Origin: a virus
Reading direction: 5' to 3' (one strand)
Virus record (IMG/VR): IMGVR_UViG_3300037264_006483
Coordinates: 1-29,255 of that record
DNA length: 29,255 nt
Of the stretch, positions 4,528 through 29,255 are shown piece by piece (the stretch's first letter is position 1; every line of letters starts with the position of its first letter). The translations under genes and the position numbers were made by a program. The notes under the pieces are model-generated. The model did not search any database. It saw nothing but the letters and a program-made list of their open reading frames with translations, and was not told the origin of the DNA.

Positions 4528-5103
4528 ATGGAACAGCCTCTCGTACTTGATCGGGCTGCAGCCATCACAGGGTGGATGAGTATGCGCGAGTTGACGTGGC
4601 TTGCCACAACGGCTCGTGCATGCTCGCTCATCGTTGAGATTGGCAGTTACCAGGGACGTTCGACGCGGGCGTTAGGCGACAACTGTCCGGGCACGGTCTA
4701 CGCGATCGACCCGTGGGTGCCGCTTGCCTACATGCCTCCGCAGATAAAGCGACATGGGGATACGTGGCCCCACTTCACAAAGAACCTGCGGGATCTCCTG
4801 CAAATAGTCAAAGTGGTTCCTATAAAACACCGCAGTGTGGATGCGTGGCCGCATCTACTCCGACTGCTCGGTGGCCGCAAAGTCGATTGTGTGTTCATTG
4901 ACGGAGACCATGATGAGCCTGCCGTGCGGCTCGACATTCAACTCGCGTTGCAGGTACTCAAGCACAACGGCATTCTGTCCGGGCACGATTACTCGCACAA
5001 GGACTGGGCCGGTGTGAAGGAGGTGGTGGATGAATTGTATCCAGGAATCAACCACGTGGATTCGATTTGGTGGACACGATGCGCATCATCATTCCCAGTG
5101 TGA
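4528..5103 (+). CDS. Class I SAM-dependent methyltransferase
   Basis: This 191-residue protein has a Rossmann methyltransferase fold. Motif I is VEIGSYQGRST (Glu37-Gly39), the acidic end of strand 2 is at AIDPW (Asp61), and VDCVFIDGDHDE (about 119-130) followed by LKHNGILSGHDY matches the Methyltransf_24-like group, often found beside glycosyltransferases and acting on sugars or small molecules. It lacks a DPPY/NPPY motif, so a DNA methyltransferase is unlikely. The gene follows the decoration gene by seven bases and overlaps the following glycosyltransferase gene. The ATG at 4528 has only a weak ribosome site; ATG 4576 is the alternative, but the conserved-looking N-terminal helix favours the longer form. 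I infer methylation of a glycan made by its neighbours. Confidence 0.82.
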   Translation: MEQPLVLDRAAAITGWMSMRELTWLATTARACSLIVEIGSYQGRSTRALGDNCPGTVYAIDPWVPLAYMPPQIKRHGDTWPHFTKNLRDLLQIVKVVPIKHRSVDAWPHLLRLLGGRKVDCVFIDGDHDEPAVRLDIQLALQVLKHNGILSGHDYSHKDWAGVKEVVDELYPGINHVDSIWWTRCASSFPV

Positions 5104-5741
5104 ACTACGCGGACTTCCTACTGGCCACGCTGCCGTCGTGGAGGCAGGCGTTGCCAGAGGCGCAGGTGACTGTGGTCACGACGCCGGGTGATGTTGCCAC
5201 GATGACCGTGGCAACTCAACACGGTGCGCAGGTGTTGGAGACTCCTGTGTGGTTCAGCCGTATTGACGGACGACCCACGTGCTTCAACAAGTATCGTGCG
5301 TTGGATGAGGCACTGGCGTTTGCGAATCCGGCCGTTGGAGAACCTGTGCTGATGCTGGATGCGGACGTGGTGCCTGTGGGTCCGTGTCCAACTGCAGTTG
5401 AGGCGGATACGCTCGTCGGATGCATTCGGTATCTCGTAACAAATGTCGGAGAACTCTCCGCGTATTTGAAGAGACCGGTGCCTGGAATTCTTCGGCGGTT
5501 GAATCCGCTGCCGAACTCGAGCTATCCGTTGGCGCACGTGCCGCACGGATACTTTCAATTGTTCGCGTATCGATCGGGGATTGGGTTTGGCGACTTCCAC
5601 AACGCCGCGAAGGGTGATTTGCGATTCGGCGATCACTTCAAATCGCTGCACTGGATACCTCCAAAGGAGTTTCACGTTCTCCATCTAGGCGCGTCGAGTC
5701 GGGCCAACTGGAACGGCAGAGTCCTACCGGCATTTACGTAA
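5079..5741 (+). CDS. Glycosyltransferase-like protein (GT-A type)
   Basis: The protein begins MRIIIPSVNYADFLLATLPSW, the first strand and helix of a nucleotide-sugar-binding GT-A fold. LMLDADVVPVGP at about 93-104 provides a DxD-type metal site. Near the C-terminus, FHVLHLGASSRANW contains a histidine of the kind that often completes the metal site. At about 220 residues it is compact. I chose ATG 5079 over the upstream TTG 5067 and GTG 5070 because the fold starts there; it overlaps the methyltransferase gene by 25 bases. The sugar donor and acceptor cannot be told from sequence. The gene is part of a four-gene modification cassette inside the structural block. Confidence 0.72.
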   Translation: MRIIIPSVNYADFLLATLPSWRQALPEAQVTVVTTPGDVATMTVATQHGAQVLETPVWFSRIDGRPTCFNKYRALDEALAFANPAVGEPVLMLDADVVPVGPCPTAVEADTLVGCIRYLVTNVGELSAYLKRPVPGILRRLNPLPNSSYPLAHVPHGYFQLFAYRSGIGFGDFHNAAKGDLRFGDHFKSLHWIPPKEFHVLHLGASSRANWNGRVLPAFT

Positions 5742-5767
5742 TCTCGTTATGGAAAAGGAAAGAGGCA

Positions 5768-6604
5768 ATGACACCAACATACGCACTCGTGATAGGAACG
5801 ATCAACCGGGCACCACGGAAGAACTATCTCGGAGAGACACTGCGGAACCTCGCTCGCGCGGGCGTATGGGATTCTCCGGTGCCGTTCCGAATGGACATCG
5901 TCGACTCCGGGTCAGTCGACGAACGCAACTACATCGACACGCAGGTCTACCCGAACATTCCTCCGGGCTTGTCGAGTCACAAGTTCGCCGTGCACTTCCT
6001 GGACATGGCGACGATGAACATGAAGTCTCCGCAGTTCGCTATTTATCAGACGAGCGAGAAGTTGTCGCTGCGCCGATCACGGAACGCCAACGCGATCGAA
6101 TGCCTGAAGATTGGTCTGGCGACTGGCGCTGAATGGATCCTGTTTGTAGAAGACGACGTGGACGTCTGCGGCGACTTCTTGGGATCCGTGGATCGCTGGC
6201 TGGCCGGACATGCGCGACGCAATCGGCATCTCTACTCGTTCTGCACACCGTACAAACAGATTCGTACGGTGCGTGCACGCGGCGGAACGGCGTGGGAGTT
6301 TCCGTGGAAGGCGTTTTACGGGAACCAGTGCCTCGTGTTCCACAAGCGTGACGCCGCGCTGGCTGCGAAGTTCATCGAGGACCGAATGAACACGTGGGAC
6401 ACTGGCCAAGGCTTCGACTTGCTGCTCAAGCACTGGGCTGCGGCCACATGGCCTGGCATACCCTCGTTGCTGTCCAGTGTGCCGAGCTTCGCCCAGCACA
6501 TCGGCGAGGAGAGTTCGCTGCACTTCGGCCGGTTTCATACTGGTGCAGAGTTCGGCGGACCGGACTACGTGTACCAGGCGCAAGAAGTGCGGGTGAGCGA
6601 ATGA
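5768..6604 (+). CDS. Glycosyltransferase, family 2-like (GT-A)
   Basis: This 278-residue protein opens with YALVIGTINRAPRKNYLGETL, typical of GT2 family N-termini. Residues about 97-125 (LSLRRSRNANAIECLKIGL, then WILFVEDDVDVCGDF) place an EDD metal-binding motif where the DxD of a GT-A enzyme is expected. WEFPWKAFYGNQCLVF and the later DTGQGFDLLLKHW region would form the acceptor side and catalytic acidic residues. A ribosome site (ggaaagagg) precedes ATG 5768. Its TGA overlaps the ATG of the next glycosyltransferase (ATGA at 6601), so the two are translationally coupled. It probably transfers a sugar to a virion protein or cell-surface molecule; the acceptor is not known. Confidence 0.78.
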   Translation: MTPTYALVIGTINRAPRKNYLGETLRNLARAGVWDSPVPFRMDIVDSGSVDERNYIDTQVYPNIPPGLSSHKFAVHFLDMATMNMKSPQFAIYQTSEKLSLRRSRNANAIECLKIGLATGAEWILFVEDDVDVCGDFLGSVDRWLAGHARRNRHLYSFCTPYKQIRTVRARGGTAWEFPWKAFYGNQCLVFHKRDAALAAKFIEDRMNTWDTGQGFDLLLKHWAAATWPGIPSLLSSVPSFAQHIGEESSLHFGRFHTGAEFGGPDYVYQAQEVRVSE

Positions 6605-7887
6605 GCTCGGTCTTGTGGGTGGGCGATGCTGTGTTGCAAACCGGCTTCGCTCGCGTCACGCACAACGTGCTCGACTACTTGCATTCGATCGGTTGGACAG
6701 TGAACTTGATCGGGATCAATTACGACGGGGACCCGAACCACGGGTATCCGTACGCCATCTGGCCCGCAGGCACAGGCGGAGATCAGTTGGGACGGAAACG
6801 TCTCGCCACGTTGAGTCAGCACTTGAAGCCGGATGTGATTTGCATCATCCAGGATCCGTGGGTGGTGGCGGACTATCTTAACAGCGACGTGTCGCCCACA
6901 ATACCGATTGTTGCCTACATGCCGGTGGACGGGAAAAACATTTCGAAGGCTCCGCTGCTGAACGATCTGGCATGCGCTATCTGGTATACGAACTTTGGAA
7001 AGAAGGAAGCCACCATCGGCGGATACGAAGGCAAAAGCGAAGTGATTCCGCACGGTGTTGATCTGGCCGTATACTCTCCCGGTGATCGAGATGAAGCGCG
7101 GCGGAATCTCGGACTTGACGTGGCGTTGGCAACGCAGGGAATCGATTACCAAGATGCGTTCATTGCCATGAATATCAATCGCAATCAACCGCGCAAGCGG
7201 CTGGACTACGCACTGCACGTGTTTGCCAAGTGGTGGAACGCGGAGGGACGGCCGGACAACGCGTTTCTGTATCTGCACTGTGCGGCGGTTGACCTCGGGT
7301 ACGACATCAAGCAGTTGGCGCGCTACTACGGAATCGGGAAGCGTGTGATCCTGTCTCGCGTCAAATACAGTTCACGAGACAGCGTGAGCGAAGCAGACTT
7401 GGCGAACATCTATCGTGCAGGCGATATCGGTTTCAGCACCACGCGCGGAGAGGGATGGGGACTGACCACGATGGAAGGCATGGCATGTGGCCTGGGACAA
7501 ATCCTTCCAGACTGGGCAGCGCTCGGCGAGTGGCCTCGAGACTTCGCATACATGGTTCCAGTGTCGCATGTGCTGACGGAAGTGCGTGTGAACATTATCG
7601 GAGCGATGGCGAGTTCGAAGCACATGGTGGACGCGCTGCACATAGCGTTTACAAGTCCAGAGTGGCGGAGGGAGTACAGTCGAAAAGCGTTGGCGTGCGT
7701 TGCAAACCCGGCGTACCGATGGGAGTCGGTGGCGCAAGAATTTCACCGCGTTCTTACTGAGGTGGTCAATGGCGAACACAAGCAGCGATCGGAAGAACCC
7801 GACACCCTCGTTGACACCCGCATCGAAGCAGCAAGGGCTGCCGGCGAACAAGCAGATGACCGGGACGGCGTCGAAGCATCCTCGTAG
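6601..7887 (+). CDS. Glycosyltransferase group 1 / GT4-type (GT-B fold)
   Basis: This 428-residue enzyme has a GT-B fold. The N-terminal Rossmann domain begins VLWVGDAVLQTGFARVTHNV, and a conserved SEVIPHGVDLAVYSP linker leads into the C-terminal domain. The donor-binding E-x7-E motif is complete: GEGWGLTTMEGMACG with Glu284 and Glu292. The start at ATG 6601 is set by the fold and by the ATGA overlap with the preceding gene; the open frame extends further upstream but that part is antisense-like shadow. The last 45 residues after FHRVLTEV are hydrophilic and not part of the fold; another reading frame is open across them. This is the most confidently assigned enzyme in the cassette. Confidence 0.9.
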   Translation: MSSVLWVGDAVLQTGFARVTHNVLDYLHSIGWTVNLIGINYDGDPNHGYPYAIWPAGTGGDQLGRKRLATLSQHLKPDVICIIQDPWVVADYLNSDVSPTIPIVAYMPVDGKNISKAPLLNDLACAIWYTNFGKKEATIGGYEGKSEVIPHGVDLAVYSPGDRDEARRNLGLDVALATQGIDYQDAFIAMNINRNQPRKRLDYALHVFAKWWNAEGRPDNAFLYLHCAAVDLGYDIKQLARYYGIGKRVILSRVKYSSRDSVSEADLANIYRAGDIGFSTTRGEGWGLTTMEGMACGLGQILPDWAALGEWPRDFAYMVPVSHVLTEVRVNIIGAMASSKHMVDALHIAFTSPEWRREYSRKALACVANPAYRWESVAQEFHRVLTEVVNGEHKQRSEEPDTLVDTRIEAARAAGEQADDRDGVEASS

Positions 7888-17089: not shown

Positions 17090-20000
17090 ATGCCTGTTAC
17101 CCTCTCCGGGTCTTCGTCTCACGGGAAGACGACTGGGCCTGCGTCTTCACTGACTGTATCGCATACCAGTAACAGTGACCCGCTGTATGTCTGGTTGAGC
17201 GTTGATGATGTAGCGGAAATTTCAACAACCGTTACGTTCAACGGAGTTGCGCTTAGTCGTCTTGGTCGAGTTACGGGGAACGGACGAACCGTTGAACTCT
17301 GGTTTATTCGTTTACCCGGAACAACGACGGCCGATGTCGTTATCACCCCAGGAGTCAGTCGAGAGATTACGGCGGTTGTCCATAACGTCAATGGGGCGGA
17401 TATGGACGGCGTGTTTCGTAATCTCGGAGTTGCGACCGGATCCAGCACTGCTCCGTCTATCGCTATTTCCAGCGCCACGAACGATCTTGTTCTCGACTTC
17501 TGCGTCAGCGACGGAAATAGCGCAACGCTATTCGCGGTTGGTGCAAGTCAGACGCCGGTTCACGAACAGGAAGCGGCCGATACAGACGAGAAGTCCGCGT
17601 CCAGTTATGAAGCCGGGGCTGGATCCGTTACGATGTCCTGGACGCTGGCGGTCAGCGATGCCTGGACGATAGCCGGTGTTTCTATTCCAACTGATGGAAC
17701 CGTTGCAGCGGTTGATGCTCGGCTTTCTCAGGTAGCGGTTGAAGTCCCGCACGCGTATTCGCTAGCGGACAATGCGGCGCGACTTTCTCAGGTAGCGGTT
17801 GAAGTCCCGCACGCGTACGATCAATCCGTTCAAAATCTGGCTCGGCTTTCTCAGGTAGCGGTTGAAGTCCCGCACGCGTACGATCAATCCGTTCAAAATC
17901 TGGCTAGCCTCTCCCAAGTGGCGGTTGAGGTAGTTAGACTACCTTCACAAGCAGAAGTTCTATACGCCTACCTATCCCAGGTTGCGCTTGAAGTTTGCGT
18001 GCTCCCGGTTCCACCGGACGCACGGCTCTCACAGGTCGCACTCGAAGTCGTTCACGACATTGCGCCATCTGATACGCGTGCTACGCAAGTCGTTATCGAG
18101 ACACTATCTCAGCAAGATGGAGAAGCGGCCGTCACGCAAGTCGCTATTGAAACGCTATCCAAGAACCTCGATACCGATGTCCGTGCGTCGCAGGTCGTTA
18201 TCGAAACGATCTCAGACGGTCAACCGTCCGATCTTCGCGCCACCTCCGTCGTTATAGAGTTCATACGCAAAATTCCAAACCATCCTGAGGAAGGCGCCAG
18301 CCTGTGTCTTATTGAGGATGACCCGATCCTCTTTGCATCATGGTTACCGGATCCTGCTAGTCCCAGAAAATGGTATGCAGAGACATCTCTCGACGATGTG
18401 ATCAATTACTACGGTGGATGGAAAGACGATCGTCTTCTGGGTGTTGGAGAAATTCGTCGATCACTTTCTAACACTGATTGGAATTACGAAGTTGGAACCT
18501 TCTCCGTAGATTTTGCCGATGAGGACTACGCCATTCGAGACGTAATTGAAGACGGTCCGGGATCGTTTTTGAACAATCGTGAAATTGAAGTCTTCATGGT
18601 CTCTCCGGAAGGACGAAATAATCAAGACGTAGCGATGAAGATCGCTGCTGGCTTTACGGACTCTGACGTATCGATTGACGACTTCGATCAGGCAATGTCG
18701 GTTCGATTTTCGTGTAAGGATCGAGTGGGGACGGCGTTGGGTTGGGGTCAAGATGGCGAAGCCGGTCTTCCTCGTCGAACACTTACCAGTGATACATTAC
18801 CGGACGTGTTGGCGAATGTTTACGGTAAGACAGCACCGTATCCATATGGAGACTTAACTCGAGACATTGTTATTCCATCTGGAATATTTGCATCTGGTAT
18901 TGATTACGAACATCCATGTGCAAGGGTGCTGGCATGGCCGGTACGAAGAGACGTTGTACCTCCATCTGGCTATGCAGGCTTATGGCACGAGTTTATACTC
19001 GGTGGCTGTGCTATCGTAGATGTTGATGCGTGGGTATACGATCCTGCACCGAATGATTTAACTTTCCAAGCGCTTGCTGGAATTGAAATTTCAATGGGAG
19101 ACGGAACCGAGTGGCTTGTACCGGGTTCAACGGCTCCACTCTATCGAGATGTGGTTGGTGGCGATAGCGTGACCCGTCGTTTCGCTTTCATGTATGGACA
19201 AGGACCGAAAGCCGATGCCGTAGTAGCAGGCACCGCGAAGTTAACGGTTAACATGAAAGGTGTTGAAACGAGAGGTGACGGTACTGGAACCCTTATCACT
19301 GACCTGTTCGATCAAAATCTTCATAAACTCGAAAACCTCGTCATGGTAGACGGAGAAGGGTATACGACTGGGGCGTGGACCTCTCCGCGTTTGTTCGGCA
19401 GTGAAAACATTTATCTCGTGGATCGGATCGGACACGCCGATCTTCAAACGATGAGAACGGATGAGTTGATCGGTGGTCCCGGATTACCGGAGTGGACTGG
19501 TGTCGGTATTCTCGGAGCATTCGGTGAACGGATTTCGGTGTCGGATGAATTGCGTCGACAACAAATGTGTGCAGATTTTCGATACGGGCCAAATCGACAT
19601 TGGCAAGTAACGATGCACGCCATCAACAAGAACTTAACTTTTGACGAGTGTGCGCCGTTGTTGGACATTCACGATATTCATATACGGTCGTTCAAACCGT
19701 ATCCGCGTCAGTCGGAGATGTTCAATGACCTTCCGTATCGGTGGCGTCGAGATTACTCAGAGGACGGGAAATGGTTACGGGATAACTACCGAACTACAAA
19801 CGAACAGTCTATCGAGGATCATCGACTGAAGAGAGAGATGAGTCGACTTGAATTCCATTACTTGGATCACGATACGATCATCAACTATTTGACTGGAGTG
19901 ATTCGTCGACGACGGAGTATCATTCCTTGGTACGCACGCGTTACAGGTTCTATGTGTTTGCGTGATCAGGATTACGATATCGGGAGGTCTGTTCGACTGA

Positions 20001-20155
20001 CGCACTGGCGCGGTCTCCGTCCGAATGGATGGGTAGACCGCCCGTTGTGGATTCTGGCCAGTACGATTGATCCACCAACGCGCCGTGTCACGCTTGAACT
20101 GCTCGATTTGTTTTTACTGCTTGACACGATTGAAACTGAATTTCCTACTGCATGA
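17090..20155 (+). CDS. Large tail tip protein with ten short repeats and a baseplate hub-like C-terminus
   Basis: At 1021 residues this is the largest protein in the window. Residues 1-205 form a beta-sandwich domain (for example WLSVDDVAEISTTVTFNGVA and TAVVHNVNGADMDG). Residues about 210-397 are ten repeats of roughly 17-21 residues with core (A/V)-R-x-(S/T)-Q-V-(A/V)-(V/I)-E-(V/T), a motif I associate with repeats in phage tail proteins. Residues about 400-1021 are a large non-repeated region with several tryptophan-rich segments, ending RPLWILASTIDPPTRRVTLE, which resembles the end of baseplate hub proteins. The start ATG 17090 lies three bases after the previous stop. The protein probably builds the tail tip or a fibre, with the repeats as a spacer. 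No enzymatic motif is obvious. Confidence 0.65.
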   Translation: MPVTLSGSSSHGKTTGPASSLTVSHTSNSDPLYVWLSVDDVAEISTTVTFNGVALSRLGRVTGNGRTVELWFIRLPGTTTADVVITPGVSREITAVVHNVNGADMDGVFRNLGVATGSSTAPSIAISSATNDLVLDFCVSDGNSATLFAVGASQTPVHEQEAADTDEKSASSYEAGAGSVTMSWTLAVSDAWTIAGVSIPTDGTVAAVDARLSQVAVEVPHAYSLADNAARLSQVAVEVPHAYDQSVQNLARLSQVAVEVPHAYDQSVQNLASLSQVAVEVVRLPSQAEVLYAYLSQVALEVCVLPVPPDARLSQVALEVVHDIAPSDTRATQVVIETLSQQDGEAAVTQVAIETLSKNLDTDVRASQVVIETISDGQPSDLRATSVVIEFIRKIPNHPEEGASLCLIEDDPILFASWLPDPASPRKWYAETSLDDVINYYGGWKDDRLLGVGEIRRSLSNTDWNYEVGTFSVDFADEDYAIRDVIEDGPGSFLNNREIEVFMVSPEGRNNQDVAMKIAAGFTDSDVSIDDFDQAMSVRFSCKDRVGTALGWGQDGEAGLPRRTLTSDTLPDVLANVYGKTAPYPYGDLTRDIVIPSGIFASGIDYEHPCARVLAWPVRRDVVPPSGYAGLWHEFILGGCAIVDVDAWVYDPAPNDLTFQALAGIEISMGDGTEWLVPGSTAPLYRDVVGGDSVTRRFAFMYGQGPKADAVVAGTAKLTVNMKGVETRGDGTGTLITDLFDQNLHKLENLVMVDGEGYTTGAWTSPRLFGSENIYLVDRIGHADLQTMRTDELIGGPGLPEWTGVGILGAFGERISVSDELRRQQMCADFRYGPNRHWQVTMHAINKNLTFDECAPLLDIHDIHIRSFKPYPRQSEMFNDLPYRWRRDYSEDGKWLRDNYRTTNEQSIEDHRLKREMSRLEFHYLDHDTIINYLTGVIRRRRSIIPWYARVTGSMCLRDQDYDIGRSVRLTHWRGLRPNGWVDRPLWILASTIDPPTRRVTLELLDLFLLLDTIETEFPTA
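17717..18275 (+). repeat. Ten-copy coding repeat with an exact tandem duplication
   Basis: The repeats encode the core L-S-Q-V-A-V-E-V or its variants (T-Q-V-V-I-E-T). A 35-base block starting ctttctcaggtagcggtt occurs exactly at 17723-17757, 17783-17817 and 17846-17880. Sixty bases from 17783 match 17846-17905 exactly at a 63-base period, so at least one duplication is very recent. Later copies (17909-18275) have diverged at DNA level but keep the protein motif. The unit stays a multiple of three, so copy number can change without breaking the frame. Confidence 0.92.
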
Positions 20156-21859: not shown

Positions 21860-24046
21860 TCACAAAGGGTTACGGACGGGATTTGGCCCGGTTTGGCCCG
21901 GTTTGGCCCGGTTACCCGGCCGGGTGGCGGTCGTCCCCCGGCGGATGACCAATTTAGCGGCCGCACGGCTGGCGCCGAACACACCCGACTCTTCCACCGC
22001 GCGACGAATGTATTTGGTCAGGACCCACGTGTGTTTGAATCCGCTGCCGACGTTTCCTTTTCGCTGAATCACTTTCAACAAATTCAAATCGTCCATCAAC
22101 CGTCGCACCGTCGTCATCGGGTATCGCGTAATTCTTGAGACGTCCGCTACGGACACTTCTGTCAGCGGACCCTGTGACCACATGGCGCCGATAATATCTT
22201 CGGCCCGCTGCGACACGGTATCGAGCATCACCTTGCGCACGATGCGGTAGTCGTCCAGGTTCACCGCCTTGCGTCCGTGCACCACGGCCAACGCGCGCGC
22301 GAGCTTCGACAACTGGATGCCGAGACGCGATCCGACTTCGGCGAACGGCCGACCCATCATCATGTCAGAGTTGTACTGGTCTCTCGAGACCGTGCCTCTC
22401 AGGCGCGCACCGAGTTGCGCCAGCGAGATGATACGCTTGTGCAGAACGTTGTCCAACTTCGGTGCGTCCATATCTTCGAACCGATACTCGAGGAAGTTCG
22501 ACGTGACCTCGGCAAGCTCTTCCCGCATCTTCGTATCTTGGTCCACGTTCTCAATCGCTCTCGAGATGATGTCCTCTTCCTGGTGGTGGTGCAGGTTGTC
22601 GCCCATCACATACTTCAGGAACCGTTCGCCGAGTGCGGCGTGCCGGCTTCCGATTTCGTAAATGCGTGGCGTCACCGCTGCGATGATTGTGAAGTGAGAC
22701 TTGTACATGCGCTCAACGCCGTTGCCGAATACTTTACCGCATTGGCCGTCGTAGGCGTCGCGGAGGATGCTGAAGATTTCCTCCATCTCGTTCTCTCGCA
22801 ACCCGAGGATGGACGTGAAGTCTTTGATGACCAGCACCTTGCCGTGCAAACGCGGAATGAGCGATGGGTCGGCCGCACCAGCAACATTGCTTCCAGAGAT
22901 CAAGGAGTGCGCGGTGAGACTGGATGTGGCGTACGACTTGACATACTCGGTCAAGCCCGCTAGCGTAATTGTTTTCGCGCCGCCAGGAGGCGACACCAGG
23001 AACAGCCACACGGGTGGACCCTGGATCTCCTGGCTCAGCGCCGTGGCGAGCATGACATCGATGGCGTCGGTGTTCGGTAGGTGCAACCACTTGCGGTAGA
23101 CCGCGTGCACGTCCTCTAACTTCGGAATGTGCGACGGCCGTTCCCGTGTGACCGGTGCCTTCGCAACCAGTTTAATAACCCTACCCGACTCGGTGCGCAC
23201 GTTGCTGCCCGATCGACGCGGAGATTTCTTTACCAACGACAGCAAACGTTCAAGGCATTTCGAAAGGTTGCCTGTGCCTTTCTTCAAACCGTAGATGAGC
23301 CAGTCGCGCGTATCGAACCCAGTGGGCAGTTCGTCTGGCCAGTGCACGAACGAGAGCGACTTCGCTACCGGACCCAGCTTCTGATGCAGCGACTGTTCGC
23401 CCTTGCGTCCCGGTTCGTCGTGGTCGTAGAGCGCCGTCACTCGCCGGCCGGAGAACCATTTGAGCCAATCGCGTTTGAAGATGCCTGCACCGGGCACGGC
23501 CACAGTGAGGCCTTCGCTTTTCGTTTTGCGCAACAGCCACGCCAGCGCCATGGCGTCCCACTCGCCTTCGCAAATGTAAACGGGTTCGTCCAGACGATCG
23601 CCGAGATGCTCCGCACCCATCAGGCCCACGTGGCACCCGGCTGTGCTGCGCATCGCTTTCTTTTTCAAACCGTAGAGACGGATGTCAACGACGTTGCCGT
23701 CAAGGTTGCGAATCGGAACGGCGTACTGCGTGCCTGTCCATCCGATGTTCCACGGTTTGAACGCGGACTGCGGGAGTTGCCGGTGTGCAGCCAATGCCGC
23801 GATCTGATCCGTGTCGAAGGCTTCGCCGTAGTCTTCGGCAATCGCATCTAGGAACTGCGTCACGTTCCCTGACATGCCAGCCGTCTTGCTGTCCCACAAC
23901 CACGTGGTGCGGTTGACGTAGAACTTATCCTCCTTGCCGGTGAAGGGGCAGGTGCCGTAAAGTTCGTCCCCGCGCGTGCCGGAGAAATCGACACCGTGCA
24001 TTTCGAACAGTCGCGCCGTTGGATACTTGTCGTAGTCGATTTTCAC
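21860..24046 (-). CDS. Primase-helicase (Toprim + P-loop ATPase + winged helix)
   Basis: This 728-residue replication protein starts at a GTG (24046) that overlaps the polymerase stop. Residues 25-70 (LYGTCPFTGKEDKFYVN, then LWDSKTAGMSGNVTQFL) resemble a primase zinc-finger/CHC2-like region, but only one cysteine remains. A Toprim domain follows: YICEGEWDAMA with Glu160 and ALYDHDEPG with Asp208 and Asp210. An ATPase domain has the P-loop-like VSPPGGAKTI (Lys358), where Ala replaces the Gly usually before Lys, and a Walker B-like VLVIKDFTS. A winged-helix-like region with TRYPMTTVRRLMDDLNLLKV lies at about 630-660. It probably unwinds and primes DNA for the adjacent polymerase. The last ~25 residues are low-complexity and encoded by the 10-bp repeats. 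Confidence 0.82.
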   Translation of the reverse strand: MKIDYDKYPTARLFEMHGVDFSGTRGDELYGTCPFTGKEDKFYVNRTTWLWDSKTAGMSGNVTQFLDAIAEDYGEAFDTDQIAALAAHRQLPQSAFKPWNIGWTGTQYAVPIRNLDGNVVDIRLYGLKKKAMRSTAGCHVGLMGAEHLGDRLDEPVYICEGEWDAMALAWLLRKTKSEGLTVAVPGAGIFKRDWLKWFSGRRVTALYDHDEPGRKGEQSLHQKLGPVAKSLSFVHWPDELPTGFDTRDWLIYGLKKGTGNLSKCLERLLSLVKKSPRRSGSNVRTESGRVIKLVAKAPVTRERPSHIPKLEDVHAVYRKWLHLPNTDAIDVMLATALSQEIQGPPVWLFLVSPPGGAKTITLAGLTEYVKSYATSSLTAHSLISGSNVAGAADPSLIPRLHGKVLVIKDFTSILGLRENEMEEIFSILRDAYDGQCGKVFGNGVERMYKSHFTIIAAVTPRIYEIGSRHAALGERFLKYVMGDNLHHHQEEDIISRAIENVDQDTKMREELAEVTSNFLEYRFEDMDAPKLDNVLHKRIISLAQLGARLRGTVSRDQYNSDMMMGRPFAEVGSRLGIQLSKLARALAVVHGRKAVNLDDYRIVRKVMLDTVSQRAEDIIGAMWSQGPLTEVSVADVSRITRYPMTTVRRLMDDLNLLKVIQRKGNVGSGFKHTWVLTKYIRRAVEESGVFGASRAAAKLVIRRGTTATRPGNRAKPGQTGPNPVRNPL
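21882..21911. repeat. Three exact tandem copies of a 10-bp unit
   Basis: The unit tttggcccgg occurs at 21882-21891, 21892-21901 and 21902-21911 without a mismatch. The period of about one helical turn would place bound proteins on one face of the DNA. The copies fall within the last codons of the leftward primase-helicase gene; because 10 is not a multiple of three, each copy is read in a different frame. Confidence 0.9.
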
Positions 24047-26124
24047 TACGCCGCTCGTTTCAAGAAGTAAACTTCCTTCGCATCGTTCCAGGAAGTGGAT
24101 GTCAGTTTCATTCCAACCGGCAACGGAACCGGAAGGTTTGGAACGTAGTGTGAGTCCATCTGCATCAACTGAATAATCTTGCGCATCAACGCGGCACTGT
24201 GGTCTCGAAGTAGGATTTCACAAATGCCTTCGTCGTGGACGCTGCCGACCAGGTGAGACCGGTCGTAGTTCGCCAGCAAGTGTTTATCAATTCGCACCAA
24301 TGCTCGTTTCAGGATTTCTGCCGACGAACCCTGGACCATATAATTCACGGCCTTGTATGCGAACCGTTTCTCGATTGCGTACTCTCGCCCAAACAGGTTC
24401 GTCAAGATGCCGGTATCGCGCACCTGGTCGATGACGCGATTCATATAGTCTCGGACGCCGGGCAGGTTCTCGTTGAAGTCGTTTACGAATTCCTCCGCCT
24501 CCATCATCGAACAACGAATCAGGAAAGCAATCTTTCCGATGCCTCCTCCGTAGAGTCTCGAGAACAGAATCATCTTGGCGCGCTGTCGCCACCACTTAAT
24601 GAGGCAGCCCTTCTTGTGGCGGCTCTTCTCGAGATCCCAGTTGATGATGTAGGCGTTGTTCCGTTTAATTTCCTGTAACACTTCCTTCCAACGGCCGCAC
24701 GTGCAGAAGTCGTCGCGATGTCCCCATGCCGCTTGTGCGGTGGAGAGATGAAAGTCGCTGCCCGATAACAACGCGCGCATCATCGCCTTCTCTTTGGCGA
24801 CAAACGCAAACACCCACACTTCGATCTGAGAGTAGTCTGGCAGATACCACAGGTAGCCCGGTCTCGGTCCCCACGCCTCACGCTGTCGTGCGCGCATGTT
24901 GGCGTGACGCCTCGACGTTTCCGCTGAAGCAATCTGTTGTGTGTTCGGATCGTGGCAGGAGAACCGTCCGGTCTTCGCACCGGCTTGATCCCAACCAGGG
25001 TGCACCATGCGTGATCCGTCTAAGCGCCCACACAAAAAGTATTCGTAGCTGTCGAGATACTCAACAACCTTCTTGCCGGCCTTCCATTCCAATGCGGCTC
25101 GCGCAATCGGACAGCCGTCGTCACCGTCGCCGTCCACGTCTGCACCGGCGTTCGAACCGCGTGCCCACGCCATCAACTGCTCCGCGTCAATCTTCGCGGA
25201 GGTCACGTTGCCTGCATTGTCCCTGTTGTAGGTCTTGGCGTCGTAGCCCAACGTCTCAATGAACACCGCGTTCATTTGCTTGCTGGACTGCAGGTTCAGT
25301 TTGCCGTAGCCGAACTTCTTCAGGCGACGCCGCATGGTGCGCATGTAGTCGGTATAGAACTCGTGGAGTTCTTTTCCCACCGGCTGGAGATACGTCATGC
25401 CGTATCGTTCCATCCGCAGCGTCGTGTCCAGCAATTTCCGTTCCCATCGATACACATCCCAGAGACGTCCGCCTTCCTTTTTGTTCTTGTCGAAGAAGTT
25501 CATGGACGTCTTCCACAGCAGCGCACAGCGGATGGGATCCGCTTCGCCGTAGGTCTGCACGAGCTCGGTGAGTTCAGGCAGCCAGTAATCTGCGTAGGCA
25601 GGGTTCTTCAGATGAGAGACCTTCGTGGCGATGGCCCATCCCCTTTTCTTCGCGGCCAGTCGCGCTCGCTGCGTCGCCTTCTTTAACGCCTTCTCGTCGT
25701 CGTTGGGGAACCGGAAGTTTTTTACGGTGAGTGCTTTCAATCCGTAGGTCATCTCATCGCAGATGACCATACGCCACATGACCTTCGTGTCGTCCTTCCT
25801 GCACCGCCAGTCCCAGTCGATATCCGGCTGTGCGGTCATTCGGATTTCGAACGCCATGTTGTGCGCCACTACGGTCATTTTCGGATCTTCGACTTTCGAA
25901 CGGAGCCAGCGCATCTCCGCACGACAATTGTCCCAGGTCACTTCGCGTGTATATGGATTCACCTCGCCACGGAAGGAGGCGACCTGTCCATCGATGTTCG
26001 CAACCTGGAACATGAACGGACGGTCAACCGCCATACCTAAACGTTTACGACGTAGCGTTGGCCACGGCTGTAGGCCAGTGGTCTCCGAGTCGTAGAACAG
26101 AACGCTGTCAGGCGTTCGAATCAT
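24046..26124 (-). CDS. Family A DNA polymerase with 3'-5' exonuclease
   Basis: This 692-residue polymerase replicates the phage genome. The exonuclease motifs are intact: Exo I LFYDSETTGL (Asp12, Glu14), Exo II VVAHNMAFE and Exo III YGEAD. Polymerase motif A is LPDYSQIEVWVFAF (Asp430), with Trp where Pol I has the Arg after DYSQIEL. Motif B is RQRAKMILFSRLYGGG, keeping Arg, Lys, Phe and Tyr at Pol I positions 754, 758, 762 and 766. Motif C is VGSVHDEGICEI (His630, Asp631). There is no 5' nuclease domain, as usual for phage enzymes. An insert of about 40 residues between motifs A and B holds C-x-C and H-x3-C pairs. ATG 26124 overlaps the upstream stop as TAATG. Confidence 0.95.
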   Translation of the reverse strand: MIRTPDSVLFYDSETTGLQPWPTLRRKRLGMAVDRPFMFQVANIDGQVASFRGEVNPYTREVTWDNCRAEMRWLRSKVEDPKMTVVAHNMAFEIRMTAQPDIDWDWRCRKDDTKVMWRMVICDEMTYGLKALTVKNFRFPNDDEKALKKATQRARLAAKKRGWAIATKVSHLKNPAYADYWLPELTELVQTYGEADPIRCALLWKTSMNFFDKNKKEGGRLWDVYRWERKLLDTTLRMERYGMTYLQPVGKELHEFYTDYMRTMRRRLKKFGYGKLNLQSSKQMNAVFIETLGYDAKTYNRDNAGNVTSAKIDAEQLMAWARGSNAGADVDGDGDDGCPIARAALEWKAGKKVVEYLDSYEYFLCGRLDGSRMVHPGWDQAGAKTGRFSCHDPNTQQIASAETSRRHANMRARQREAWGPRPGYLWYLPDYSQIEVWVFAFVAKEKAMMRALLSGSDFHLSTAQAAWGHRDDFCTCGRWKEVLQEIKRNNAYIINWDLEKSRHKKGCLIKWWRQRAKMILFSRLYGGGIGKIAFLIRCSMMEAEEFVNDFNENLPGVRDYMNRVIDQVRDTGILTNLFGREYAIEKRFAYKAVNYMVQGSSAEILKRALVRIDKHLLANYDRSHLVGSVHDEGICEILLRDHSAALMRKIIQLMQMDSHYVPNLPVPLPVGMKLTSTSWNDAKEVYFLKRAA

Positions 26125-26312
26125 TAGTCCTCTTCTCGATGTCGCGGATTGCCTGGATGTTCAAACAGAATCGCCGGGTCGTTCGGGTCCACAAGGAAAT
26201 CCGCGTCGCATTTCGGATCTGGATACAGATCGTCGAACAGTTCCGTCAACTCTGCTTCAGAACGAATCGTTTTCCTTTTGACGGTGTGTTGAGTTTGATG
26301 ATCTCTTCCCAT
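26124..26312 (-). CDS. Small acidic protein upstream of polymerase
   Basis: This 62-codon frame runs from ATG 26312 to a TAA that overlaps the polymerase ATG by one base. A GGAGG sits ten bases before the ATG; GTG 26339 is possible but lacks a ribosome site. The protein has a basic start (MGRDHQTQHTVKRKTIRSEA) and an acidic remainder with DPKCDADFLVDPNDPAILF. It overlaps the glycosyltransferase end by 67 bases. I recognise no family. Tight coupling to the polymerase suggests a replication accessory role or simply a translational coupler. Confidence 0.6.
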   Translation of the reverse strand: MGRDHQTQHTVKRKTIRSEAELTELFDDLYPDPKCDADFLVDPNDPAILFEHPGNPRHREED

Positions 26313-27049
26313 GGGATGCGCGCCTCCAAGTGGCCCCACGTCGGGGCGAAGTCTGTTGCGAGTCTCGCCAGCCCAACGGAACTGCGGCTGCGATTTTCCT
26401 TCAGTCCGATACCGCCTTCGTCCATTCGGTGTTTCGTAAACGGTGCGTCGAGCGTTGCGCGGAAGTCGACGAAGCCTTTACTGATCAACCACATTGTGAA
26501 GTAACGGTCTGCATAGCAGGGCAGATCAAGCGGATAGCGGAACGCTTTAAGCATTTGGTGTGACACGCACCGAAGGATCCAACCTATCTTCCGATACACA
26601 CGGAGGTCTTGGTTCGTGACCATCGTGCGTGCAATTAGGAATCGGTCAAAGAACTCTGCCGTGGAATGCGCGCCAGCCATATGCACCGGCGTGCCCCACT
26701 CCGCTGTCGCGCGCACCAAGTTCGTGAACGAGGTTCGGGGGAACCGGCAGTTGTCGTCGGACATCACGTAGTAATCGTAGCCGTGTCTCACCGCCGCGCG
26801 TCGCAGAACCTCCAAGGCTTTTCCAACGCACGCATCTGGATTGTCGTAGTCAACCAGCCGCACTTTCGGAAGGGCGTCGAGCACGGGACGATACGCGTGG
26901 AGCTCTGCCGAATCAATCGCCAGGTAGGTGCCTGTGCGGTTCCACGTTGCGTGCATTGTCTTCAACGCCTTGAACATGATGTCGGCGCGTCCCCTGGACG
27001 GAATGAGATGCGCCACCGTGACGTCGCCGTTGTGCGTGGATACTTTCAT
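26246..27049 (-). CDS. Glycosyltransferase-like protein (GT-A fold) in the replication operon
   Basis: The start at ATG 27049 overlaps the upstream SDR stop as ATGA; the open frame extends further but that part is shadow of the SDR gene. The 267-residue protein opens with VAHLIPSRGRADIMFKALKT, typical of nucleotide-sugar transferases, and has YYVMSDDNCRF near residues 92-102 as the metal-binding DxD-like site. Later segments (SHQMLKAFRYPLDLPCYADR, then a region with TKHRMDEGGIG) could provide catalytic residues. Because it is co-directional and coupled with DNA polymerase and a nucleotide-modification-like gene, DNA or nucleotide glycosylation is a possible role. A surface glycan role is the alternative. 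Both are inferences. Confidence 0.68.
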   Translation of the reverse strand: MKVSTHNGDVTVAHLIPSRGRADIMFKALKTMHATWNRTGTYLAIDSAELHAYRPVLDALPKVRLVDYDNPDACVGKALEVLRRAAVRHGYDYYVMSDDNCRFPRTSFTNLVRATAEWGTPVHMAGAHSTAEFFDRFLIARTMVTNQDLRVYRKIGWILRCVSHQMLKAFRYPLDLPCYADRYFTMWLISKGFVDFRATLDAPFTKHRMDEGGIGLKENRSRSSVGLARLATDFAPTWGHLEARIPWEEIIKLNTPSKGKRFVLKQS

Positions 27050-27762
27050 CCAACTATATCCATGCACGCGCCGCTCATATACGACGTGGCGTTGTACGAG
27101 AGTTGAACGATGAACTCTGCGACCGCCTTCACGGGAAACTCCAAGCCTGTGACACTGCCCGCTTTGAAGTAGTCGCTGGCCTGTTCCGGTGTCCACCCAC
27201 GCATCTTACATACCTGCGCGTCGATGTAGCGGCTCATGCCGGTGTCGGCCATCTTGCCCGGCCGCACACCGATAAACGAAACTCCGCGCGGCTTAGTCAA
27301 CTCGCGTGCCATCTGCTTCGTGGCCATGTCCATCGCTGCTTTGGAAATGTTGTAGGCGAGGGAGTGTCGCATCGGCCGCCACGCCGCGTCGGAGATCACG
27401 TTGATCACCGTGCCCTTGGACCAGGACAAGGACTCCAGTAGAGCCTTCGTCAGCATGATCGGGCCCACGCAGTTGACCGCCATCACTTCATGCAGGAACG
27501 TATCGCTCAGGTTCACGAACTCTCGAACCGCGTTCATGCCGGCATTGTTGATCAACAGATCGATGTGTCCGCCGAACTCGAGTTTCGCAGCGACAGCGAA
27601 CCGCGCTATCGATTCTGGGTCCAGCAGATCCATGTGCCTCTGATTGCTACGCACATGATCGGGCTGATGCGTCGTTCCCAATACAAGGTGAGAATCAAAC
27701 TCGTACCTGCGCCTCAACTCCTGGCCCAGTCCACTGCTGGTGCCTGTTATCACGATGTTCAT
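27046..27762 (-). CDS. Short-chain dehydrogenase/reductase (SDR)
   Basis: This is a complete classical SDR of 238 residues that would oxidise or reduce an alcohol/carbonyl with NAD(P). The cofactor motif TGTSSGLG (6-13), the NNAG motif (72-75), Asn97 and the catalytic triad Ser124 (INVISDAAW), Tyr137 and Lys141 (YNISK) are all present, followed by VRPGKMADTGM. Nothing is truncated, so selection appears to keep it active. ATG 27762 overlaps the previous stop by ATGA. SDRs are uncommon in phages; here it stands between an Nmad1-like gene and a glycosyltransferase, so it may make or alter a sugar or base modification. The substrate cannot be told from the sequence. Confidence 0.9.
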   Translation of the reverse strand: MNIVITGTSSGLGQELRRRYEFDSHLVLGTTHQPDHVRSNQRHMDLLDPESIARFAVAAKLEFGGHIDLLINNAGMNAVREFVNLSDTFLHEVMAVNCVGPIMLTKALLESLSWSKGTVINVISDAAWRPMRHSLAYNISKAAMDMATKQMARELTKPRGVSFIGVRPGKMADTGMSRYIDAQVCKMRGWTPEQASDYFKAGSVTGLEFPVKAVAEFIVQLSYNATSYMSGACMDIVG

Positions 27763-28169
27763 TTGGGTTCCATTCCTTTCTCTTCCAGTCGTTGCAACAC
27801 TTGGATCATGCGGACGCAGTACACCGCCATGTCGCTGAGCGTTTCCTGCATGTCGCCAACCGCACCGGTGAGACCTGAGGAGTCTACGAAAAACTGTCGA
27901 CTGCCTCGTGCCTGTTCCATTTGCGTTTCGAGCCGGCCGAACTTTCGCTGGATGTCCCAGTACGCGCCCCAGGTCTCGCGTTCGAAGGATCGAATATCCG
28001 TCAAACGAAAGTCGCCGTACTGATCTACCTTCCGTGCGCCGATGTATCCCAGCGTGTGAAGCAGGCCGGTATACTCCGCTTGGAACGCTCCGCCTCGTTC
28101 ACCCTTTAGGTTTGCGGGATCGTATCCGGCGTGTTCGAGGAGTCGGCACGCTAGCTTGCTGAAAGACAC
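27759..28169 (-). CDS. Nucleotide modification associated domain 1-like (DUF1599-like) protein
   Basis: The start is GTG 28169, overlapping the VOC gene end by 19 bases. The 136-residue protein is all-helical in appearance. Its centre, ARKVDQYGDFRL then AYWDIQRKFGRLETQ and later ETLSDMAVYCVRMIQVL, follows the DUF1599 / Nmad1 pattern (K-x-x-x-Y-G-D, W-x-x-x-x-R-K-x-x-R-L, D-x-L-x-D-x-A-x-Y), an all-alpha family related to nucleotide pyrophosphohydrolases. Such domains have been associated by context with phage base modification. I recognise it by pattern, not by a search. A nucleotide-pool enzyme or a modification accessory would both fit its place before SDR, glycosyltransferase and polymerase. 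Confidence 0.58.
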   Translation of the reverse strand: MSFSKLACRLLEHAGYDPANLKGERGGAFQAEYTGLLHTLGYIGARKVDQYGDFRLTDIRSFERETWGAYWDIQRKFGRLETQMEQARGSRQFFVDSSGLTGAVGDMQETLSDMAVYCVRMIQVLQRLEEKGMEPK

Positions 28170-28702
28170 GTGAACAATTCCTTTCCCTGTGCGATGGATT
28201 CATTCACGACCGGCGTCTTGGACGCGTGACCAACCAGGCGTTGAATGATTTTGATCGGACAGCCGAGCCGATCGTTTACATAGGCGTAGCGGTAGCGTCG
28301 CCGGGTGCCTGTGTGAAACACGGTCTCGGAAACCTGCATCACGGTGAACCCTTCCTCCTGCAGGTCCTGCAACTCCTTCACCAGCGTGTCGAGCGTGTCG
28401 TTCTTGATCTGGTCGTTGCAGTGGTAGCCGAAGTGCGACAGCTGCCCCGGCGTATTCAACTGATACGACTGGCCCACAATGAGTTCCAGCAGTTCGAACT
28501 CGAGTGGCGCCATCACGTCGTAGTTGAACGCCAGGTGCACGCGGAAGGAACTGCCCATCAATTCCTTTATCGACGGGTGGAGGTAGATGTGCATCGCATC
28601 CACCGTATCTCGAATCCATTCATGCACGCCGCTACTCACGTACCGGCGCACGGTCTTGTTGATGTCGCTAGTGCGCAACGCAATCTGTCCGATGTTAAGC
28701 AT
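28151..28702 (-). CDS. VOC-superfamily (glyoxalase-like) protein
   Basis: The 183-residue protein begins MLNIGQIALRTSDINKTVRR, the opening strand-helix of the vicinal oxygen chelate fold, and repeats the theme at LSHFGYHCND (about 106-115) with LQDLQEEGFTVMQV and a closing GCPIKIIQRL strand. In typical VOC enzymes metal ligands lie at the first strand (His), the start of the second module (His) and the last strand (Glu). Here the first is Gln, the second His is kept and the last is Lys, so metal binding may be lost. ATG 28702 is favoured by ggag at seven bases; ATG 28708 is the alternative. It may bind a small molecule or nucleotide sugar. Confidence 0.65.
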   Translation of the reverse strand: MLNIGQIALRTSDINKTVRRYVSSGVHEWIRDTVDAMHIYLHPSIKELMGSSFRVHLAFNYDVMAPLEFELLELIVGQSYQLNTPGQLSHFGYHCNDQIKNDTLDTLVKELQDLQEEGFTVMQVSETVFHTGTRRRYRYAYVNDRLGCPIKIIQRLVGHASKTPVVNESIAQGKELFTCLSAS

Positions 28703-28834: not shown

Positions 28835-29255
28835 CTACGTCCTCTTCTTCTTCGCCTTCTTCTTCGGCTCTTCGACATCCAGGATCTTGTCGATGCCGAC
28901 CTTCACGACCTTGCCTTCCTTCGTCCGCACCTTGATCGCGTTGTCGTCTTCGAGGACCTCAACGACTTCCGCCTTGACGACGCCGGACTTGAGCTTGACC
29001 TTGGCGATGGACCCGACGGTCACCGACACTTCGTCGTCCTCGTCCTCGTCGTCTTCGTCGTCGTCGTCGTCCTTGGCCTTCTTCTTTTTCTTGGCCTTGG
29101 GTTCGTCCTCGTCTTCGTCCTCGTCCTCGTCCTCGTCCTCGTCGTCGTCATCGACGGGCTTGGACTTCTTTTTCTTTTTCGGCTTCTCGTCCTCGTCGTC
29201 GTCCTCGTCGTCGTCGTCCTCGTCGTCTTCGTCGTCGTCGTCGTCGTCGTCGTCG
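28835..29255 (-). CDS. Acidic/lysine-block protein with SH3-like C-terminus (5' partial)
   Basis: The frame is open from the right edge of the window to TAG 28835-28837, so the gene begins beyond base 29255. The visible part is about 140 codons. The upstream 75 codons alternate between Asp/Glu runs and Lys clusters (KPKKKKKSKP, KAKKKKKAK). The last 64 residues form a small beta-barrel-like domain: SVTVGSIAKVKLKSGVVKAE, then a V-R-T-K-E-G-K segment and IDKILDVEE, in the style of KOW/SH3/Tudor-like domains, ending in another Lys/Arg tail. GTG 29029 could be an internal start but the low-complexity part is in the same open frame. A nucleic-acid-binding or chaperone-like role is conceivable; I cannot name a family. 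Confidence 0.65.
   Translation of the reverse strand, partial: DDDDDDDDEDDEDDDDEDDDEDEKPKKKKKSKPVDDDDEDEDEDEDEDEDEPKAKKKKKAKDDDDDEDDEDEDDEVSVTVGSIAKVKLKSGVVKAEVVEVLEDDNAIKVRTKEGKVVKVGIDKILDVEEPKKKAKKKRT

Follow-up and report, generated by a model that had tools for sequence, protein, structure and literature searches.

What is made by the overlapping genes that lead into the DNA polymerase gene of virus record IMGVR_UViG_3300037264_006483, analysed here over a stretch of 29,255 bases (the window)? A first-pass annotation of this DNA had read a VOC protein, an Nmad1-like helical protein, a short-chain dehydrogenase/reductase (SDR) and a glycosyltransferase (GT) as a coherent candidate pathway of four genes for a modified nucleotide or for post-replicative base glycosylation. 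The minus strand does carry all four overlapping open reading frames (ORFs), which lead to the polymerase. In transcription order, this strand carries the end of an acidic SSB-like gene, a gene for a VOC/glyoxalase-superfamily protein (P0001; 28151..28702, 183 aa), a gene for a small all-helical protein, P2 (P0002; 27759..28169, 136 aa, GTG start), the SDR gene (27046..27762, 238 aa), a putative GT gene (26246..27049, 267 aa), a family-A DNA polymerase gene (PolA; 24046..26124) and a primase-like gene. Neighboring genes overlap by 19 nt (VOC/P2), 4 nt (P2/SDR), 4 nt (SDR/GT) and 1 nt (PolA/primase). PolA has a 3'-5' exonuclease-type N-terminal motif and matches Pfam DNA_pol_A (E=1e-52) and PHROG 17 (E=2e-81).

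The block probably (at roughly 60%) forms the downstream half of a conserved locus through which phages supply their own polymerase with a modified deoxynucleotide or DNA base. This reading is the best supported because the VOC-P2-SDR-PolA order is conserved, because a flavin-dependent thymidylate synthase (ThyX), a HAD nucleotidase and an FAD oxidoreductase are linked to the same enzymes beside two types of polymerase, and because SDR and VOC are present or absent together. The presence, order, conservation, catalytic residues and co-occurrence of the genes were observed directly. The proposal of a modification locus is thus retained from the first-pass annotation, with the GT as an accessory and with Nmad1/MazG-like as a suspected label for P2.

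Relatives were found by IMG/VR scans with P2, PolA and SDR proteins or alignments, and their loci were annotated by profile. Some loci repeat the same contigs (L003/L004/L020; L002/L005/L024; L009/L015), and near-identical loci include L008/L009, L007/L010 and L016/L017. The order VOC-P2-SDR is kept wherever a locus extends far enough to show it (about 12 independent contigs after removal of duplicates), and the SDR gene precedes PolA in every relative locus that extends to PolA. This conserved synteny rules out a coincidental adjacency of VOC, P2, SDR and PolA. The expectation that metagenomic phages would show the same four-gene order beside polA holds for VOC-P2-SDR-PolA in all long-enough relatives, but with the GT only in L002; the GT, found among the compared contigs in the window and L002 alone, is therefore not part of the constant core. 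The slot between SDR and PolA ranges from 2 to about 920 nt and holds the GT gene, a MazG-like gene (L003, with a weak Pfam MazG match, E=0.049; L007, MazG-like by sequence) or little else. In a PolA tree, the window clusters with L002, L003 and L007 as a single group of four with 100/100 support, and the content of the slot varies among these members. The PolA of the window is 64% identical to those of L002 and L003, in which the primase-like gene is likewise kept downstream. Distant SDR carriers recovered in the same scan (L023, L025-L031) have FAD and HAD genes in part, and profile annotation detected no VOC, P2 or PolA near their SDR genes.

The upstream half of the locus is seen in G001, G002 and G003, where the genes before SSB encode an FAD-oxidoreductase-like protein (partial in G001), a MazG::HAD fusion whose MazG part is a reading of the sequence, a divergent ThyX and an AAA protein. 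ThyX was identified by Pfam profile in six of the seven relatives searched, and the seventh contig ends before the ThyX position. The proteins of this clade are long (419-452 aa) and carry the signature RTR[LI]GAGFMQHGGR; the canonical ThyX signature is RHRxxSxNxxSxR. The constant unit is VOC-P2-SDR-polymerase together with upstream FAD-HAD-ThyX, and the GT is an accessory.

The enzyme set is common, in varying subsets, to hundreds of cultured phages. A tblastn search with the window SDR returned 138 phage records, a number inflated by generic SDRs, and a second query returned 102; two queries with the FAD family returned 359 and 120. SDR and FAD record counts are equal in phages of Escherichia (27), Xanthomonas (6) and Pantoea (3), which suggests, at the level of counts, that the SDR carriers in these groups are FAD carriers. 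In seven cultured phages, the same families adjoin the polymerase: Pantoea phage Kyle, Escherichia coli phage Bas98, Xanthomonas phage XcP1, Microbacterium phage RikSengupta (with no ThyX within the stretch shown), Aeromonas phage Gekk3-15, mycobacteriophage Butterscotch and Gordonia phage Ranch. VOC homologs occur in the first five (E from 6e-16 to 9e-10). Comparison of the metagenomic clade with cultured phages by hhalign gave probabilities of 97 for FAD (Gammaproteobacteria phages), 99 for HAD (actinophages) and 99 for ThyX, and the Butterscotch HAD protein matches the deoxy(pyrimidine) nucleotidase NT5C (E=1.5e-7). The neighborhood is common to two independent polymerase types, PolA and DnaE.

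The closest counterpart in laboratory phages is the locus of Wifcevirus (Bas98, L033, and relatives), in which homologous enzymes stand beside the replicative polymerase in the order FAD - ThyX - HAD(PNK-like) - SDR - VOC - DnaQ - DnaE. Unlike the window clade, it has DnaE and not PolA, carries a helical domain as a fused part of the HAD protein where the clade has a free P2, and has no GT in the slot. In its annotation, the SDR is called FabG-like and the VOC and FAD proteins are hypothetical; a function has never been assigned to the locus. Pbunavirus is a genus distantly related to Wifcevirus (PMC11990801), and Pbunavirus JG024 (L156) has the FAD, ThyX, HAD, DnaQ and DnaE genes in the same order. 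While Bas98 has both SDR and VOC between HAD and DnaQ, JG024 has neither in the 17 kb examined. Together with the correlation between SDR and VOC distances (r=0.91, 0/5000 permutations), to which shared phage ancestry contributes, this joint absence indicates that SDR and VOC behave as a pair; they may catalyze consecutive or dependent steps. JG024 and 291 Pseudomonas phage records depict Pbunavirus as a carrier of the FAD-ThyX-HAD core without SDR/VOC.

According to the BASEL study (PMC11990801), Wifcevirus resists almost every restriction system tested, and none of the known protection mechanisms accounts for this. Bas98 carries the gene set, and the set may explain this resistance, as a correlation and not as proof. 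Since counterparts exist in cultured laboratory phages, the question becomes testable, and Pbunavirus, which has neither SDR nor VOC, offers a natural comparison.

A possible scheme can be outlined, in which we infer the substrate, the order of reactions, the DNA modification itself and protection from restriction as its benefit. C5 of dUMP would be the target of the divergent ThyX that relatives encode upstream. The substituent at C5 would then be elaborated by the FAD oxidoreductase and by the SDR and the VOC protein, the latter two as a pair, with the SDR performing a carbonyl/alcohol redox step and the VOC protein a metal-dependent rearrangement, epimerization or oxygenation. Competing canonical nucleotides may be removed by the HAD nucleotidase and the helical MazG/Nmad1-type proteins, and PolA, or DnaE in other phages, would incorporate the product. 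The favored reading is thus that a 5-substituted deoxyuridine nucleotide is made before replication; the TAGT-like GT of the window phage and L002 might afterwards glycosylate a hydroxyl of the base. This particular order of reactions is improbable as it stands. A broader proposal is tentative and still rather unlikely: that the ThyX, FAD oxidoreductase, SDR and VOC proteins make an undescribed hypermodified uracil, glycosylated in the window phage, that would be present in phages of Escherichia, Xanthomonas and Pantoea, probably in a related form in those of Mycobacterium and Gordonia, and would cause the resistance of Wifcevirus.

Several points weigh against a DNA-modification locus. The modification is a prediction from the presence, order and conservation of genes. 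None of the known DNA-modification marker families was detected among the 54 ORFs of G002 or the 47 ORFs of the window and G005; this absence fits a new pathway but is also consistent with no modification. The window contig stops within the SSB gene, before the position of FAD, HAD and ThyX, so that their presence in the window phage is presumed from synteny. No VOC was found by profile in the stretches of Butterscotch and Ranch; an SDR can thus occur without a recognizable VOC. The role of P2 as an enzyme is putative. Wifcevirus is very sensitive to EcoP1_I (PMC11990801), and its resistance to other systems could have another cause.

The main rival explanation is a nucleotide-pool operon without DNA modification, in which ThyX, HAD, MazG and P2 balance the deoxynucleoside triphosphates, SDR, VOC and FAD proteins recycle reduced folate, pterin or flavin, and the DNA stays canonical. 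A further point against the modification reading belongs here, namely that ThyX, HAD nucleotidases (NT5C) and MazG are also ordinary phage genes of nucleotide metabolism. Some SDRs reduce pterins (FolM/PTR1), and one pteridine reductase model appears among the 209 generic SDR matches of the window SDR. However, pteridine reductases carry the motif TGxxxRxG, whereas this SDR has the classical TGxxxGxG, and a pool operon leaves the VOC protein, the SDR-VOC pairing, the GT slot and the Wifcevirus resistance unexplained; we regard it as unlikely. The set might instead modify a free small molecule, such as a host nucleotide signal, NAD or a cell-wall precursor, and so block defence or redirect metabolism. 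Small molecules can be substrates of phage GTs, SDRs and VOC proteins, and a further cluster of methyltransferase and GT genes lies in the structural region of the window, but in unrelated phages the set is tightly linked to the genes for the replicative polymerase and the primase, which favors a role in DNA synthesis and makes this explanation very unlikely.

Compatible with a modification pathway, by contrast, is the possibility that VOC-P2-SDR forms the real pathway while the window GT occupies the slot by chance and acts elsewhere, for example on a capsid or receptor glycan. The GT is found in only two compared contigs, the slot being otherwise empty or MazG-like, its TAGT match is below cut-off, and no TET/JBP dioxygenase partner was found among the 47 ORFs of the window and G005 (the window is a fragment and G005 probably one). 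Yet its gene overlaps the SDR stop by 4 nt, L002 has a GT at the same position with 47% identity, and the two copies alike suggest TAGT, a family that acts on DNA. An unrelated GT is thus a possibility to be taken seriously, although the balance tips against it.

The individual proteins differ in how clearly they can be assigned. The SDR, described at first pass as complete, is confirmed as a classical member of its family (Pfam adh_short E=4e-29) with TGxxxGxG, NNAG and an intact N-S-Y-K catalytic set (N97/S124/Y137/K141) that is kept in the phage SDRs; these also share the signature S-[DN]-A-A-x-x-P-[ML]-x-x-S plus RGW. Only generic-looking SDRs, with at most 38% identity over part of the protein, were found among the best 80 bacterial matches. 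The best match in bacterial genomes, a partial one at 38% identity, lies on a contig of a Gastranaerophilales metagenome-assembled genome (L056 8001-8465) and is possibly a prophage or phage contamination.

The VOC protein matches Pfam Glyoxalase_4 (E=8e-5, 23.3 bits) below the curated cut-off of 27, but several weak hits support the assignment: those of its homologs in L012 (3e-3) and Bas98 (7e-3), and one to the lactoylglutathione-lyase-like structure PDB 3gm5 (E=0.27). Nine residues (Q6, E68, E70, H90, H94, Q123, H130, K151 and R155) are invariant in 17/17 sequences, and the invariance of so many polar residues argues for an enzyme. Of the expected metal ligands (H/Q, E/Q, H, E), three could be Q6, E70 and H90, judging by position; the Glu expected in the last strand is not conserved.

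P2, 56-57% identical to its homologs in L002 and L003, was aligned as a family of 13 members. As described in the first-pass annotation, it appears helical (AlphaFold2 pLDDT 83); its assignment as Nmad1-like found no convincing family match, and a fold search returned no significant match. The best hits were DUF4494 in Pfam (E=0.16) and E=0.41 in PHROG, and Nmad1/DUF1599 (PF07659) gave no match at E<=1 for P2 or any of the 13 members. By eye, P2 shows a DUF1599-like helical pattern of K-x-[DN]-YG followed by K/R-x-x-R-[LI] and then E...D..Y, and hhalign gave weak profile support (p=0.014 against DUF1599 repeats; p=0.0013 against actinophage family C). The fold search yielded coiled-coil and bundle noise, with relevant but non-significant matches to the AF1178 pyrophosphatase (E=1.9) and a viral NTP-PPase-like protein (E=0.99). 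In cultured phages, tblastn with P2 gave only tail-fibre noise (E=0.2), and counterparts there match weakly only. Actinophages have a small helical-looking family near the SDR (PHROG 10271; L037 8511-8996, L038 7466-7798, L025-L031) with weak profile similarity to P2. The C-terminal domain of the Gammaproteobacteria phage HAD protein is related to Microbacterium gp59 and has a P2-like pattern by eye; hhalign gave no profile support for a relation to P2, and equating the two is a suggestion.

The GT had been called GT-A-like. Its similarity to TAGT (PF20691), weak and over the N-terminal third, is E=0.013 for the window protein and E=9e-4 for the L002 homolog (15.9 and 19.7 bits, below the cut-off of 27.5). 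The motif D98-D99-N100 is conserved, and the mean pLDDT of the structure model is 45, too low to show a GT-A fold. No GT relatives were found in cultured phages, and L002 held the only one among viral contigs. The glycosyltransferase assignment is thus favored by sub-threshold matches in two homologs and is putative.

Among systems of known chemistry, Bacillus phage SP-15, whose DNA contains 5-(4,5-dihydroxypentyl)uracil, resembles the locus in that its SDR gene (gp129) stands immediately before the gene of an enlarged, divergent ThyX (gp130), with HAD-like gp135 and PolA gp109 nearby. A work cited in PMC5977210 indicates by its title that the base is synthesized as the triphosphate. Orthology is ruled out: the family signature is missing from the SDR of SP-15, whose match is merely that of any generic SDR, its ThyX scarcely matches that of the window clade, and no VOC or FAD homolog was found in the two stretches examined; SP-15 is instead an analog. 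The gp129-gp130 pair (L155 35026-36911) is a candidate for early steps of the unsolved dihydroxypentyluracil pathway. Thymidine hypermodification of the ViI/M6/phiW-14 type is alike in outline, as it proceeds from C5 of deoxyuridine, but its kinase/aGPT-type marker families have no match in G002, and the extra enzymes here are SDR and VOC. TAGT proteins act in phage DNA glycosylation (PMC13390438); those of T6-like phages show the weak likeness to the window GT described above, although no hydroxymethylcytosine or TET genes were seen with the latter.

Phage DNA modification is already known as a kind, and this enzyme set is new relative to the open-access literature searched, in which no description of it was found; most subscription papers fall outside that scope. 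Hypermodification of phage DNA is a driver of the contest between phages and the restriction and CRISPR systems, and also a source of biotechnological enzymes.

Around the block, the operon ends with the primase/helicase-like gene (21860..24046, minus strand; PHROG 47 DNA primase E=6e-12). The small gene that the first-pass annotation placed between GT and PolA (26124..26339, minus strand) is doubtful because 94 nt of it lie within the GT gene, profile searches gave it no strong match (best phrog_18417, E=0.18) and it has no counterpart in L002, where about 12 nt separate the GT stop from the PolA start, or in L003; it is probably not a gene. The SSB-like gene (28835..29255, minus strand), of which the window holds the C-terminal part, is interrupted at the contig end and has intact counterparts in L002, L003, G001 and G002. 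Its product has very long Asp/Glu runs and Lys-rich islands (window 29020-29255; L002 386-1417; L003 2356-3429), a style common to the relatives.

The plus strand carries mainly structural genes, which fill about 21 kb. Between the capsid and connector genes (4528-7887) lie a methyltransferase (Methyltransf_24 E=8.5e-16), two putative glycosyltransferases, one with a weak GT2 match and the other without a Pfam match, and one GT4-type glycosyltransferase. The methyltransferase and GT4-type matches recur in the relative G005 or in a second window gene, and the cluster possibly serves virion glycosylation. Further along, a 1021-aa tail-region protein (17090-20155) contains many copies of a repeat of about 20-30 aa (LSQVAVEVPHAY, later TQVVIET).

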